Shown here: positions 5,390 through 62,230 of the stretch, one piece after another
Numbering within the stretch: position 1 is the stretch's first letter
Layout of the letters: every line of letters starts with the position of its first letter
Assembly (NCBI RefSeq): GCF_002215215.1
Contig: NZ_CP018632.1
Location: 6,816,501-6,880,500 of the forward strand
Reading direction: 5' to 3'
Length of the DNA: 64,000 nt
Origin: Granulosicoccus antarcticus IMCC3135
Lineage (GTDB): Bacteria; Pseudomonadota; Gammaproteobacteria; Granulosicoccales; Granulosicoccaceae
Notes under the pieces: generated by a model
The model's input: only the letters and a program-made list of their open reading frames with translations
The model's database searches: none
What the model was told of the DNA's origin: nothing
Position numbers and translations under genes: made by a program

Positions 5390-5545
5390 CGAGATGCATC
5401 ACGATGATCAGTCGATATACAGCGTTACCAATATAGCCTCTTATCGTGCCGGTTACAGCAAGGCCTGACAACAGACTTACAATCCGTAACTGCTTTGACT
5501 AATTCTCTTGCATACATTGATGAATCAGAGGCTAACATGGCGTAA

Positions 5546-5702
5546 GGGATCGTGAAATAATTAAGTATCAGTTTTCAGTTGGTCCTGCGCCTGTCCGGCA
5601 AGGCGTGAGAAGGGCGAATAGCTGGCTATTCAACCGCCGAACAACGCGGCAGGGCAGGATGCAGGGACGACTGAAAATGATAATTAATTGTTTCACGATC
5701 CC
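5546..5702. repeat. MITE copy 1 (157 bp), related to the ISAzo13-like element
   Basis: Non-coding element with ends GGGATCGTGAAATAATTAAG and its inverted partner at the right. The inverted match continues with substitutions for about 45 bp on each side, and the centre contains GAATAGC-TG-GCTATTC, so one strand can fold into a long hairpin. It is flanked on both sides by TAA (5543-5545 and 5703-5705), compatible with a 3-bp target duplication. A copy at 10106-10276 is identical apart from one substitution and a 14-bp insertion. The terminal motif resembles the ends of the element at 60863-62230. Confidence 0.8.
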
Positions 5703-5771
5703 TAAGCCTATCGCCCGCGTCTTGACGATTGTCAAAGGACGCTTTCTTTCAACCCACCTTAAAATTTGCAC

Positions 5772-9001: not shown

Positions 9002-10105
9002 ATGACCACACTCAATAGACACTCTGACGAGGATAGCAATTTGCACGTTCGCAATAATTTGAAAGGATTCAGGGGCGCACACTTTACTGACCTCCGGTTG
9101 GTTACCGTGCTGCTCACATTGCTCTTACTGCAGACCGCCTGTGCTACTAAAGCTGCTGTCAATAACGACTCGCAACTAACACTGATCGCGGCAAACGGTG
9201 GCGCGTGGTACCGCCAAGTCAATCTTCAGTTACACGAGGTGCTTGGCGCAGCGACCAGCAGTGAGCTGCAGATCATTAACGCGACGCCACTAGGCTTTCA
9301 CATGGCGTTGAGAGGCCTCAAAGACCAAGCCGGCGCCGTTGTGTTCCAGTCCCCAGCCAACTCTGTAAAGTTAGCCAGCGAAGGCAAATTGACGATTACG
9401 AAGTTAGGAGGCGATGACAACATGACGGTTGAAAAAGAGCCGGTAGCACGTATTGACGGCATCACGGCTCTGTTCCCGATTCCTGCTCTGATCACGTATG
9501 TGGTGGTCAGTGATCTTAGCGGGTTAACTCGTCTTGATGATCTGCCTGAACTGGATGTCGCCTGGCTCGTGTTCGAAAACAAAGCGGAGCTCATCACGTA
9601 CACACATTTTCTGCGCAGCGCCAAACTGAAATCACACGCACTTTTGCTGAGCGAGAGCTCGTTACCGGAGACAGTAGCCGATCTGCGTGACGAACGTATC
9701 GACGGCTTTATCTTCAAGCGTCTCGGTCAGGCCGAGGATCTGAGCAACGCTCTGCAGAGTCTGGAGGACATTGGCATCAGAATATTGTCGCTGAGCGACG
9801 AGCATATCAAGGCACTACACCTCACACCGATTGAGATTCCTGCGGATACCTTCGCCGGTCAGTCTGAGCAGGTCGTAACAGGCTCTTTAAGAATGTTTGC
9901 CTATGCCAACGCACACGTGAGCGATGACATGGCCTATCAGCTAGTCAAGGCATTCTGGGAAAACCAGAACGCTCTAGTCGGCAAGTCCACGACTTGGTCA
10001 GGCATCACACCTGCTCTACTGGATGAGGTGAGCACACCCTTCCATCCTGGCGCATTGCGCTATTACCAAGAAATCGGGGTCGAGTTGCCTGATAATTTGC
10101 ACTAA
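9002..10105 (+). CDS. TAXI-type TRAP solute-binding lipoprotein, orphan
   Basis: Protein of 367 residues resembling the TAXI family of TRAP-transporter receptors. A basic N-terminus leads into LRLVTVLLTLLLLQTACAT, a lipobox ending at Cys. The mature part has LIAANGGAWYRQVNLQLHEVL near its start and finishes with the TAXI-typical FHPGALRYYQEIGVELP. The usual DctQ/DctM membrane genes are absent nearby, so it may use a distant permease or serve as a sensor. The ATG at 9002 leaves about 30 residues before the hydrophobic core; a TTG at 9041 with GAGG 8 nt upstream is a credible alternative start. Its TAA stop is the left flank of MITE copy 2. Confidence 0.72.
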   Translation: MTTLNRHSDEDSNLHVRNNLKGFRGAHFTDLRLVTVLLTLLLLQTACATKAAVNNDSQLTLIAANGGAWYRQVNLQLHEVLGAATSSELQIINATPLGFHMALRGLKDQAGAVVFQSPANSVKLASEGKLTITKLGGDDNMTVEKEPVARIDGITALFPIPALITYVVVSDLSGLTRLDDLPELDVAWLVFENKAELITYTHFLRSAKLKSHALLLSESSLPETVADLRDERIDGFIFKRLGQAEDLSNALQSLEDIGIRILSLSDEHIKALHLTPIEIPADTFAGQSEQVVTGSLRMFAYANAHVSDDMAYQLVKAFWENQNALVGKSTTWSGITPALLDEVSTPFHPGALRYYQEIGVELPDNLH

Positions 10106-10276
10106 GGGATCGTGAAATAATTAAGTATCAGTTTTCAGTTGGTCCTGGGGGACGCCCAGTCCGCCTGTCCGGCAAGGCGTGAGAAGGGCGAATAGCTGGC
10201 CATTCAACCGCCGAACAACGCGGCAGGGCAGGATGCAGGGACGACTGAAAATGATAATTAATTGTTTCACGATCCC
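10106..10276. repeat. MITE copy 2 (171 bp)
   Basis: Second copy of the element at 5546-5702, same orientation. It differs by one substitution in the central palindrome (GGCTATTC to GGCCATTC) and by a 14-bp insertion, GGGGACGCCCAGTC, after GGTCCTG. The insertion creates a small extra hairpin, CTGGG-GGACG-CCCAG. The flanks are again TAA on both sides (10103-10105, which is the stop codon of the TAXI gene, and 10277-10279). Near identity suggests recent movement or gene conversion. Confidence 0.82.
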
Positions 10277-10463
10277 TAACTCCCGTTCCGTCAGAATTTA
10301 GCACTTCAGTCGCTAAAAATGTAACCTTCAAAGCACCGAGCGGAATTACATCACTCTACATGTCTGCCTCAGGACTACCGTTAACAACAATACGCATTGA
10401 CAGAATCTATTCGTTTTTCATTAACGCATTCGATCTAGGACTGTTGCACTTGCTTAAATTGTG

Positions 10464-43385: not shown

Positions 43386-43419
43386 GAGGTCGTGAAATAG
43401 TTAATTGTTTCACGACCTC
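43386..43419. repeat. short GTGAAA-family hairpin at the yfjD stop codon
   Basis: GAGGTCGTGAAA-TAGTTAATTG-TTTCACGACCTC is a 34-bp inverted repeat with 12-bp perfect arms, starting immediately after the TAA of yfjD. It resembles the two ends of the MITEs (GGGATCGTGAAATAATTAAG) joined without the interior. It sits between convergent genes and could end transcription on both strands. Confidence 0.65.
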
Positions 43420-55603: not shown

Positions 55604-55666
55604 TAGCTGATTGTTTCACAAGTCTTCCAGGCTCGTGAAATGGGTAGCTAACTGTTTCACAAGGCC
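55604..55666. repeat. degenerate GTGAAA-family repeats after bcp
   Basis: Two pieces of the family lie side by side just beyond the bcp stop: a single right-end-like piece (GATAGCTGATTGTTTCACAA, from about 55606) and a short hairpin GGCTCGTGAAA ... TTTCACAAGGCC at 55630-55666 with imperfect arms. They look like decayed copies of the MITE ends. Convergent genes flank the site, so a termination role is possible. Confidence 0.5.
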
Positions 55667-60324: not shown

Positions 60325-60852
60325 ATGCAAGCTTCAAAACTGACCGCCGGCAGTGTATTTCCCGAACTTATCGTCTCTGATATGAACGGGGGTGAAATCA
60401 ACCTGGCCAAGCCGACCGCGCCCAATGACTGGAAGCTGGTCATCGTGTACCGAGGCAAACATTGCCCTCTTTGCACAAAATATCTGACTCAGTTAAATGA
60501 TTTCAGCGGCAAGCTGGCTGAACTGAACGTCGATCTGGTAGCCGTGTCCGGAGATCCGCTGGAAAAGGTAGAAGAACAGATGTCGACCATTGAGCCAACT
60601 TACACCGTTGGTTATGGGCTGAGTATCGAACAGATGCAAACACTGGGACTCTACATCTCTGACCCTCGTTCACCTGAGGAAACTGATCGGCCTTTCGCAG
60701 AGCCAGGCGTGTTTCTCATCAACGATAAAGGCACTTTGCAGTTAGTCGATATTTCCAATGCTCCCTTCTCTCGCCCGGATCTTGAATCGCTGGTGGGTGG
60801 AATTGGCTTTATCCGCTCAAACGACTACCCGATCAGAGGCACCCATCAGTAA
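60325..60852 (+). CDS. peroxiredoxin-like protein with CxxC motif
   Basis: Thioredoxin-fold protein of 175 residues: MQASKLTAGSVFPELIVS, the motif VIVYRGKHCPLCTKYLTQL with CPLC at the peroxidatic/resolving position, VAVSGDPLEKVEEQM and FAEPGVFLINDKGTLQLV. This is the AhpC/TSA-like family with RGxHCPxC. The ATG at 60325 has TGGAG 6 nt upstream, better than the ATG at 60295 or the long open frame to 60166. Likely a thiol-dependent reductase. It is 10 bp from the left end of the ISAzo13-like element. Confidence 0.82.
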   Translation: MQASKLTAGSVFPELIVSDMNGGEINLAKPTAPNDWKLVIVYRGKHCPLCTKYLTQLNDFSGKLAELNVDLVAVSGDPLEKVEEQMSTIEPTYTVGYGLSIEQMQTLGLYISDPRSPEETDRPFAEPGVFLINDKGTLQLVDISNAPFSRPDLESLVGGIGFIRSNDYPIRGTHQ

Positions 60853-60862
60853 ACAGTGCTAA

Positions 60863-62230
60863 GGGCTTGTGAATTAATTAACTAGCTTTTTGAGACAAGT
60901 CTGCTACGCTTATATTAATGAAAAGTGAAAAGCAGATCCGAGAGCAGTATTTTCAGATTCTACCCTCGCTCGACGAACGTGGACGACGCGAGTGGGCTGC
61001 CTCTGAGGCGATGGCGATTGGTTACGGAGGTATTGCTCTGGTTCATCGGGCCAGTGAGCTTTCTCTGATGACCATTCGCCGCGGTATTGACGAGTTGCGC
61101 GAGCGCGACGGTGAGGAGATAGAATCGCCGCGTCGGGTTCGCCGTCCCGGTGCAGGGCGGCCGTTGAAAGTGGCCGAGGACCCGACATTGCTCAGCGCCC
61201 TTGAGTCGTTAGTCGAACCCGAGGCACGGGGTGATCCGCAGTCGCCGCTGCGATGGACTCTGAAGAGTCTGCGTATACTCGCCGCCGAATTGGGCGAGCT
61301 TGGCCACACGGTGAGCTATCGTACGGTGGGTCATCTGCTCAAGAAGAAGTTGGGTTATTCGTTGCAAGGCAATGCGAAGAAGCTTGAGGGTGCCCAGCAT
61401 GTTGATCGTGATGCACAGTTTCGACATATCGCCAGTCAGAGCAAGCGACGGATCAAGGCCGGAGAGCCCGTGCTGTCGGTGGACACGAAGAAAAAAGAGC
61501 TTGTAGGGCTCTATAAGAACGGCGGCAAGGAGTACCGTCCGAAAGGTGAACCACTGCCGGTGAAGACTCACGACTTCAAAGGCGAGTTGGGTCGGGTGAG
61601 CCCCTATGGAGTCTACGACATTGGTGACAACGAGGCTTGGGTGAGCGTGGGGATCAGTGCTGACACCGCCGAATTCGCTGTGCACAGTCTGCGCCGCTGG
61701 TGGCAAGAACTGGGTCAGGAACGCTACGACTCGACGAGCGAGATTTTCGTCACAGCCGATTGCGGGGGCAGCAACGGCTACCGAGCCAGACTCTGGAAAC
61801 TGGAGCTGCAGGAACTCAGTGACGAGCTGGGCATTGCAATCAGCGTCAGTCACTATCCTCCAGGGACAAGCAAGTGGAATCGGATTGAGCACCGCCTATT
61901 CAGTTTCATTACGCTCAACTGGCGCGGCAAGCCCTTGGCGGATTACCGCACGGTTGTCGAGCTGATCGGAGCGACAAAAACTCAAGAAGGACTTCAGGTG
62001 CACTGCGAACTTGATCAGAACACCTACGAGAAAGGCAAAAAGGTCACTGACAATGAGATGGAATCGATAAACTTGCACCCCCATCGATTTCATGGTGAAT
62101 GGAATTACACGATTAAACCAAGAGAATAGTGACACGACGTAGAAATATAATTTATTTATTCACACCCCCTAACGCAGTAGGACAATATGCAGGGGCGGTT
62201 GAAATGGATAGTTAATTATTTCACCCGCCC
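60863..62230. mobile_element. ISAzo13-like insertion sequence with two candidate right ends
   Basis: Left end GGGCTTGTGAATTAATTAAC at 60863. The complement of 62209-62230 matches it at 19 of 22 positions (outer end, total 1,368 bp). An inner end, complement of 62148-62169, matches at 17 of 22 and is flanked by TAA like the left end (60860-60862 and 62170-62172), total 1,307 bp. The 60 bp from 62171 match the last 60 bp of the MITEs at 45 positions without gaps. Either the element carries a subterminal MITE-like end, or it inserted beside or within a MITE. It encodes one transposase. Confidence 0.75.
60918..62129 (+). CDS. ISAzo13-family transposase
   Basis: Transposase of 403 residues. N-terminal helix-turn-helix region with LPSLDERGRREWAASEAMAI and YGGIALVHRASELS, then RRVRRPGAGRPLK and TLSSL-like PTLLSALESLVEPEARGD-P. 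DDE catalytic domain: first Asp in VLSVDTKKKELVGLYKNGG, second in FVTADCGGSNGYRARLW, Glu in KWNRIEHRLFSFITLNWRG. These blocks match the ISAzo13 group (IS630-related). All catalytic residues and a normal length are kept, so it could be active. It lies within terminal repeats of the GTGAAA family. Confidence 0.9.
   Translation: MKSEKQIREQYFQILPSLDERGRREWAASEAMAIGYGGIALVHRASELSLMTIRRGIDELRERDGEEIESPRRVRRPGAGRPLKVAEDPTLLSALESLVEPEARGDPQSPLRWTLKSLRILAAELGELGHTVSYRTVGHLLKKKLGYSLQGNAKKLEGAQHVDRDAQFRHIASQSKRRIKAGEPVLSVDTKKKELVGLYKNGGKEYRPKGEPLPVKTHDFKGELGRVSPYGVYDIGDNEAWVSVGISADTAEFAVHSLRRWWQELGQERYDSTSEIFVTADCGGSNGYRARLWKLELQELSDELGIAISVSHYPPGTSKWNRIEHRLFSFITLNWRGKPLADYRTVVELIGATKTQEGLQVHCELDQNTYEKGKKVTDNEMESINLHPHRFHGEWNYTIKPRE

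Follow-up and report, generated by a model that had tools for sequence, protein, structure and literature searches.

MITEs of Granulosicoccus antarcticus as probable passengers of ISAzo13-family transposases

Results and discussion

Sequence comparison indicates that the MITEs of Granulosicoccus antarcticus IMCC3135 are very probably non-autonomous passengers of ISAzo13-family transposases. The MITEs and the resident ISAzo13 insertion sequence (IS) have the same ends (18 of 22 positions) and the same TTA/TAA target duplication. Common ends, a common target duplication, identical MITEs at different sites and an intact transposase gene are all directly seen in this genome. The analysis started from a window of 64,000 nucleotides, bases 6816501-6880500 of the single-contig 7.78-Mb genome (NZ_CP018632.1), and was extended to the whole genome, to related genomes and to ISAzo13 loci from other organisms.

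The insertion sequence and its copies

The IS of the window has the following features:

60863..62169, plus strand: ISAzo13-family insertion sequence of 1307 bp, bounded by inverted repeats, with TAA on either side and equivalent boundaries in sister copies
60918..62129, plus strand: intact transposase of 403 aa, PF07592 with E 6e-133 over residues 94-401, with D189, D281 and E324
60863..60884, plus strand: left terminal inverted repeat, 18/22 against the MITE left ends, weight-matrix rank 2 of 1356
62148..62169, minus strand: right terminal inverted repeat (the true end), 17/22 against the left end, weight-matrix rank 1 of 1356
60860..60862, no strand: left copy of the 3-bp target duplication TAA, read from the sequence
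62170..62172, no strand: right copy of the same duplication, within a MITE core, read from the sequence

The element starts with GGGCTTGTGAATTAATTAACTA and terminates in the imperfect complement GGGGGTGTGAATAAATAAATTA. In a profile search, its transposase matched the full PF07592 domain with 443 bits against a cut-off of 26.9. The residues D189, D281 and E324, which are among the 13 D/E residues invariant across 14 aligned transposases, are the predicted DDE catalytic triad. All ISAzo13 features tested (PF07592, a 3-bp duplication and GGG-starting terminal inverted repeats) were present, and the likeness to the family extends to IS length and to TTA/TAA as the duplicated target. ISAzo13 has been described as making 3-bp duplications and as resembling the eukaryotic Zator (PMC10045372).

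Seven full IS copies of 1307-1329 bp were identified in the genome, six with identical TTA/TAA flanks and one with TAA on one side and TTA on the other. We divided them into group A, consisting of the window IS and a sister copy (L002; 1309 bp, TTA on both sides) with a mutual DNA identity of only 80%, and group B, consisting of five copies that are 99.8-100% identical. Of the two groups, it is group B that has moved recently. An eighth ISAzo13 transposase gene is truncated, covering PF07592 positions 144-308 (L078; genome 3838381-3838875).

MITEs of the genome

Two complete MITEs are located in the window:

5546..5702, plus strand: MITE of 157 bp, TAA at 5543-5545 and 5703-5705, both ends within weight-matrix ranks 3-6
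10106..10276, plus strand: MITE of 171 bp, TAA at 10103-10105 and 10277-10279, both ends within weight-matrix ranks 3-6

A search of the genome with a pattern for the MITE ends (GGGRTCGTGAAAYAATTAA) gave 65 places, and none in the reversed control. Altogether, 54 of these places pair as 27 MITEs of 156-171 bp, a number that comprises those with two ends of the search pattern and leaves more diverged ones uncounted; the other 11 are single, including five in the short palindromes described below. Every one of the 27 MITEs is flanked by a perfect 3-bp duplication (TTA in 15, TAA in 12). Tn3-derived TIMEs have a 5-bp target duplication, and we rejected this identity for the MITEs on the basis of their 3-bp TTA/TAA duplications. 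With at most 171 bp, the elements are too short for a protein of about 400 aa and have no transposase of their own; they are short and multicopy, with inverted repeats, a target duplication and a strong stem-loop, as expected of MITEs. Exactly identical copies occupy different sites in five sequence classes of 2-5 copies each (14 of 351 pairs), and thus some of the MITEs moved recently.

Six of the 27 MITEs lie where a frame of 100 or more open codons uses the duplicated TAA as its stop; for TAA sites of the window, counted in the same way without regard to start codons, the figure is 24 of 674 (Fisher P 0.0006). An insertion at a stop TAA keeps the stop by virtue of the duplication, and little cost to the host would be expected; the excess would also arise from gene avoidance by MITEs.

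Two kinds of small variation were observed between otherwise near-identical copies. The two tip bases of the core palindrome (GAATAGC NN GCTATTC) vary, and so does one base in AACGC N GCAGGG, as seen at 5546-5702 and in the MITE alignment. At one locus (L245; genome 3354577-3355064), a distance of 175 bp separates two MITEs that differ in type, and each of them has a TTA duplication of its own.

Comparison of MITE ends with ISAzo13 ends

As a reference independent of this genome, we collected 80 ISAzo13 loci from named genomes, of which 69 were scored by a script and 11 left out. In each locus, the script looked for the strongest pair of inverted repeats flanked by the same three bases, whatever these were. 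Among the 20 best end-pairs from the 69 foreign loci scored, 18 had TTA/TAA flanks, three of these 18 being copies of one IS; the resolved foreign elements measure 1273-1351 bp. A weight matrix was built from 36 ends of 18 foreign loci, namely 15 of the best 20 (after dropping two loci without TTA/TAA, two copies and one locus at a contig edge) and three lower-scoring loci with TTA/TAA. When the 1356 TTA/TAA-preceded sites of the window were ranked by this matrix, the IS ends took ranks 1-2, the MITE ends ranks 3-6, and a 34-bp palindrome rank 7. Shuffled MITE ends that keep the GGG scored equally high in 0.02-0.45% of cases (P 0.0002-0.0045).

Direct comparison gave a concordant picture. The preliminary description of this DNA had reported 18 of 22 matching positions between the left end of the IS (60863-60884) and the left ends of the MITEs; our recount gave the same number, which exceeds what chance would give. 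When this 22-bp end was compared with every position of the window on both strands, 17 or more matches were otherwise obtained only at the MITE remnant described below (62230), the four ends of the two MITEs, the true right end of the IS (62169) and two small palindromes (43419 and 55666). Of the 21 ISAzo13 elements compared, it is the window IS whose ends are most like those of both MITE types, and the ends of group B fit the MITEs less well than those of group A. An end-pattern search of 49 genomes, this one included, gave 72 matches here and 0-2 in each of the others. No other element with such ends was found in the genome by the end-pattern searches; for nine single end matches outside palindromes, no TTA/TAA-preceded partner above 5 bits was found within 3 kb.

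Short palindromes of two MITE-type ends

The window also contains short palindromes built from the same type of end:

43386..43419, no strand: 34-bp palindrome of two MITE-type ends, TAA on the left and CAA on the right, weight-matrix rank 7
55604..55666, no strand: two neighbouring palindromes, both degenerate, with ends of this type

The first of these scored 4.5 bits on the weight matrix against 2.5 for the next site. A palindrome pattern gave 29 match rows in this genome and none in the control, as compared with 0-4 in the other 94 genomes, where the controls were of the same order. Twenty distinct palindromes were examined, in which two MITE-type end cores face each other; 17 measure 34-40 bp and the remaining three 29, 32 and 43 bp (L085, L086, L088, L091, L093 and L104 are among the loci). 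All 20 contain GTGAAA..TTTCAC by choice of the search pattern, and six have identical TTA/TAA flanks. They may be deletion remnants of MITEs. In size (about 34-40 bp) and hairpin form they are similar to REP elements, which are tied to tyrosine transposases, but they differ in the TTA/TAA flanks of six of the 20 and in the MITE-end sequence GTGAAA..TTTCAC.

A MITE remnant adjoining the insertion sequence

The sequence immediately beyond the IS constitutes a further feature:

62170..62230, plus strand: right part of a MITE with the left part missing, the target of the IS; it matches MITE right ends of the genome and no IS copies

Bases 62171-62230 match the MITE right end at 45 of 60 positions without gaps. 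We interpret the arrangement as an IS that landed on a TAA within a MITE core, the left part of the MITE having been lost. The loss may have occurred by recombination between the two similar left ends or through a transposase-made adjacent deletion; the upstream reading frame ends at 60852.

In the preliminary description, 60863-62230 had been regarded as one element, and the 45 of 60 matches as a likeness of the IS itself. The count is correct, but 62171-62230 lies outside the IS, which is flanked by TAA and ends at 62169; the boundary in sister copies is equivalent. The description had also named such shorter IS copies as an observation that would tell against it, and they exist: L002 and the five group B copies all stop at the equivalent of 62169. 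For the five full group B copies, the alignment to the query stops at 1313-1317 (query 1312 being base 62169), and 21 further places of the genome align to query 1314-1367 only, the part beyond 62169. Since 62170-62230 is a part of a MITE outside the IS, the 45 of 60 matches are uninformative on the IS, and the shorter IS copies remove only this false right-end evidence. That the whole of 60863-62230 is one transposon with a MITE-like right end has in its favour that 62230 is the best other match in the window to the 22-bp IS left end (19 of 22). This is nevertheless highly improbable, because the TAA-flanked IS and its relatives stop at 62169 and the flanks of the longer segment are TAA on the left and CTG on the right. 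A single 1368-bp element was rejected for this want of TTA/TAA at 62230.

Distribution of MITEs and ISAzo13 transposases among relatives

Among 95 genomes including this one, PF07592 was matched eight times here (once by the truncated gene), once in G030 and in none of the others. MITE matches were obtained, with up to eight candidates scored per genome, in this genome, in G012 (four match rows) and in G033 (one weak match). Thus G030 has a PF07592 transposase with no MITE match, and G012, a draft genome that is 100% complete, has MITEs with no PF07592 transposase. The G012 MITEs are diverged (84-92%) and vary in their ends (GGGATCGTGCAAC, GGGTTCGTGAAAC, GGGCTCGTGAAAC and GGCGCCGTAAAC). Their situation fits a lost driver, an assembly gap or another driver in that genome.

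The occurrence of MITEs in strains without an ISAzo13-type transposase was the other observation that the preliminary description had named against the pairing, and it was made in this one relative. It speaks against a strict dependence and somewhat lowers confidence in the pairing. By these matches, the MITEs do not occur solely with an ISAzo13 transposase, a criterion that is not strictly defining because a driver can be lost.

The same relative lends some weight to the idea that the MITEs are moved by another TTA/TAA-duplicating transposase, IS5/IS1031-type elements being of a transposase type that duplicates TTA/TAA, and that the end likeness is convergence. MITEs of a further genome (G401), which combine the same core and TTA/TAA duplications with quite different ends (GAACCTATC), point the same way. 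We consider this explanation unlikely in view of the foreign-IS weight matrix, the 18 of 22 matches and the absence of any other element with such ends among those found in the genome; moreover, the ISAzo13 matrix gives -16 to the G401 ends as against +11 to +17 for the MITE ends here.

ISAzo13-ended MITEs in other organisms

We searched 16 ISAzo13-bearing genomes with a generic end pattern; 11 gave matches, and a selection of the places was examined, several matches at contig edges being left aside. Short elements were found in two of the 16. A Gracilibacteraceae MAG of the Bacillota (G102), with two PF07592 matches, contains a 157-bp MITE bounded by ISAzo13 ends; of its 41 match rows, many are truncated at contig ends. 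Perfect TTA duplications were observed in three of the six copies with both flanks read by the script (14 loci given). In likeness to these MITE ends, the ends of the MAG's own IS tie for first place with a foreign IS among 21 elements. This is a second family of ISAzo13-ended MITEs.

The other case is a single 144-bp MITE in a Reyranella MAG of the Alphaproteobacteria (L272, G100:C85:1437-1580). It has ISAzo13 ends and is flanked by CAA on each side; its palindromic core (CTGTCATCCCGAGCGCAGCGAGG) is a different one. Two foreign ISs match its ends better than its own IS does (rank 3 of 21).

A hairpin core shared by MITEs with unlike ends

Between their ends, the MITEs of the window carry a conserved core:

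5583..5664, plus strand: conserved bulged hairpin core of the first MITE, matched by models R1 and R2
10157..10238, plus strand: conserved bulged hairpin core of the second MITE

The core of about 82 nt has the form GGCAAGGCG..CAACGCNGC with AAG and CAA bulges. In the G102 MITE, whose discovery relied on the ends only, GGCAAGGCG lies no more than two bases from where it stands in the MITE of this genome, and CAACGC-GC occurs towards the right end; 40 of 20000 pair-preserving shuffles gave such in-register 8-mers. When ten cores were aligned, the fold comprised 17 pairs, 12 of them with changes on both sides; part of the invariance in this alignment is circular, because four of the ten cores were picked by motif.

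With model R1, and up to 11 candidates scored in each genome, 83 of the phylum's 398 genomes (including this one) gave matches at E<=0.001; the highest R1 score obtained from 512 kb of control loci was 15.4 bits. To lessen circularity, model R2 was built from the MITEs of this genus alone. It finds the core in all 14 G102 loci, weakly (15-19 bits, E 0.007-0.08) and in copies that are close relatives. For loci of other genomes, which had been chosen with R1, R2 recovers the core in 31 of 40 from six genomes and in 26 of 29 further ones, with up to 54 bits; the 512 kb of control loci yielded nothing at E<=1. R2 misses L533 and all eight cores of G463, and gives L508 one weak row off the core, so that these cores are recognised through R1 only.

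The ends around the core were read by eye in the 40 loci from the six genomes (L496-L535), and the duplications were counted by script:

G401: ends GAACCTATCTCAGTAG, TTA/TAA duplications in 4 of 11
G463: ends GTGTGGTGTTTC, TA duplications in 5 of 8
G277: ends GTGTGGTGTTTCG, TA duplications in 2 of 3
G248: ends GGGCGTGTCCTCAATTAG, TA duplications in 2 of 5
G200: ends GGGCCTGTTAACACTAAT, a TA duplication in 1 of 6
G237: ends GTGTCCTGTCTC and others, no clear duplications, 7 loci

The ISAzo13 matrix gives -29 to the ends of G463 and -18 to those of G237, in addition to the -16 of G401; the GGGC-starting ends of G248 and G200 score 6.7 and -2.1. Three end types are therefore clearly not those of ISAzo13, and two (G248 and G200) are uncertain. 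The core thus occurs, across several genera, with ISAzo13 ends and TTA/TAA here and in G102, with other ends and TTA/TAA in G401, and with TA-duplicating ends in G463, G277, G248 and perhaps G200.

These observations bear on whether the MITEs are internal deletion products of the ISAzo13 IS (type I MITEs), as the ends common to both might suggest. Such an origin is extremely doubtful, since a self-comparison of the window aligns the IS and the MITEs through the MITE remnant only, and the hairpin core was matched in the 83 genomes and, where examined, has other ends. Rather than being truncated ISs, the MITEs of this genome contain a hairpin module of wide occurrence, which in this lineage is fitted with ISAzo13 ends. 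The view that the IS and the MITEs belong to one lineage therefore holds for their shared ends and fails for the core, which is a separate module found elsewhere with other ends.

On balance, we lean towards the hairpin core as the conserved unit, re-fitted many times with the ends of different transposases and probably functional for the success of the MITE whichever enzyme moves it. Repeated re-fitting with new ends would suggest that the core probably does something, candidate roles being host-factor binding, transposase binding, cruciform structure or RNA structure.

In other genomes, a second core is often located about 110 bp away in inverted orientation (L520, L521, L524-L526 and several of L467-L495), and the core is also present in locus L281. 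In Rfam, the MITE matched only mir-4436 (E 0.6, 21 bits, the gathering score being 74), and the cores of L332, L366, L339, L386 and L281 matched nothing; the rows for C4, c4-a1b1, isrK and DUF3800-VI in L332 and L366 fall outside the cores. No match was obtained by blastn for the MITE of this genome against plasmids and phages, or for the G102 MITE against plasmids. A plain core-motif search of viral contigs gave 81 stretches, which barely exceeds the 60 of the control, so that most of these matches are due to chance; four (L332, L366, L386 and L339) were retained as hairpins by eye. Short motifs of the Neisseria Correia element are reminiscent of the core. A relation of this type was rejected, as R1 gave no match with E up to 10 in 12 loci bearing the Correia sequence; by this test the core is not a member of that type. 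Searches of the open-licence literature for core sequence strings returned only works with unrelated titles.

Which transposase moves the MITEs

The preliminary proposal that the MITEs are moved by an ISAzo13-type transposase is upheld, on grounds other than the match of the right 60 bp: the common ends, the TTA/TAA duplications of all 27 MITEs, the weight matrix from foreign ISs and the MITE family of the Bacillota MAG. Mobilisation in trans is what we infer from this evidence, as is the identity of the driving IS copy. Several observations run against the pairing. Besides the distribution in G012 and G030, the recently moved IS is that of group B, with ends less MITE-like than those of group A, whose two copies are only 80% identical; in neither MAG is the own IS the sole best match to the MITE ends; perfect duplications were read in three of six G102 copies; short elements came from two of the 16 ISAzo13-bearing genomes; and one of the seven IS copies has unlike flanks. 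Because the MITE ends are nearest to the ends of group A, the driver is most likely this group or a close relative that has been lost, the chances being about even between the two.

In the mechanism that we propose, the DDE transposase would recognise an end of about 20 bp with the form GGGNYYGTG..AATNAA, cut out or copy the DNA bounded by such ends and join it at TTA or TAA, duplicating the 3 bp. It would act on its own IS and, in trans, on any DNA with such ends, the passengers here being the 27 MITEs of 156-171 bp and perhaps also the palindromes of about 34-40 bp. At 60863-62230, an ISAzo13 IS would have inserted on a TAA in a MITE core, with loss of the left part of that MITE.

Significance

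Pairs of an IS and a MITE are already known in kind. For the pneumococcal RUP, PMC2229807 describes a MITE that was inferred to be the partner of a resident IS, IS630-Spn1, from shared inverted repeats and target. The inference made here is of the same type, but the IS is of the ISAzo13 rather than the IS630 type, and the target is TTA/TAA rather than TA. A review of prokaryotic MITEs (PMC10969869), which mentions elements as small as 39 bp, describes features shared by the MITEs reported here (short length, inverted repeats, target duplication, multiple copies and a strong stem-loop); no mention of ISAzo13 was found in that review, nor, in its sections on prokaryotic MITEs and their distribution, of a core common to MITEs with unlike ends. 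Probable MITE partners distinguish the present IS from the ISAzo13 family as otherwise described: we found no report of such a pairing in the open-licence literature, where the passages of the one paper naming both ISAzo13 and MITEs do not link the two, in agreement with the preliminary description, to which none was known.

The ISAzo13 family would hence gain MITE passengers that are open to direct testing, together with a rule for finding more of them, GGGNYYGTG ends flanked by TTA/TAA. More surprising than the pairing is the core common to MITEs with unlike ends, which raises the testable question of what role the core has beyond that of the ends.
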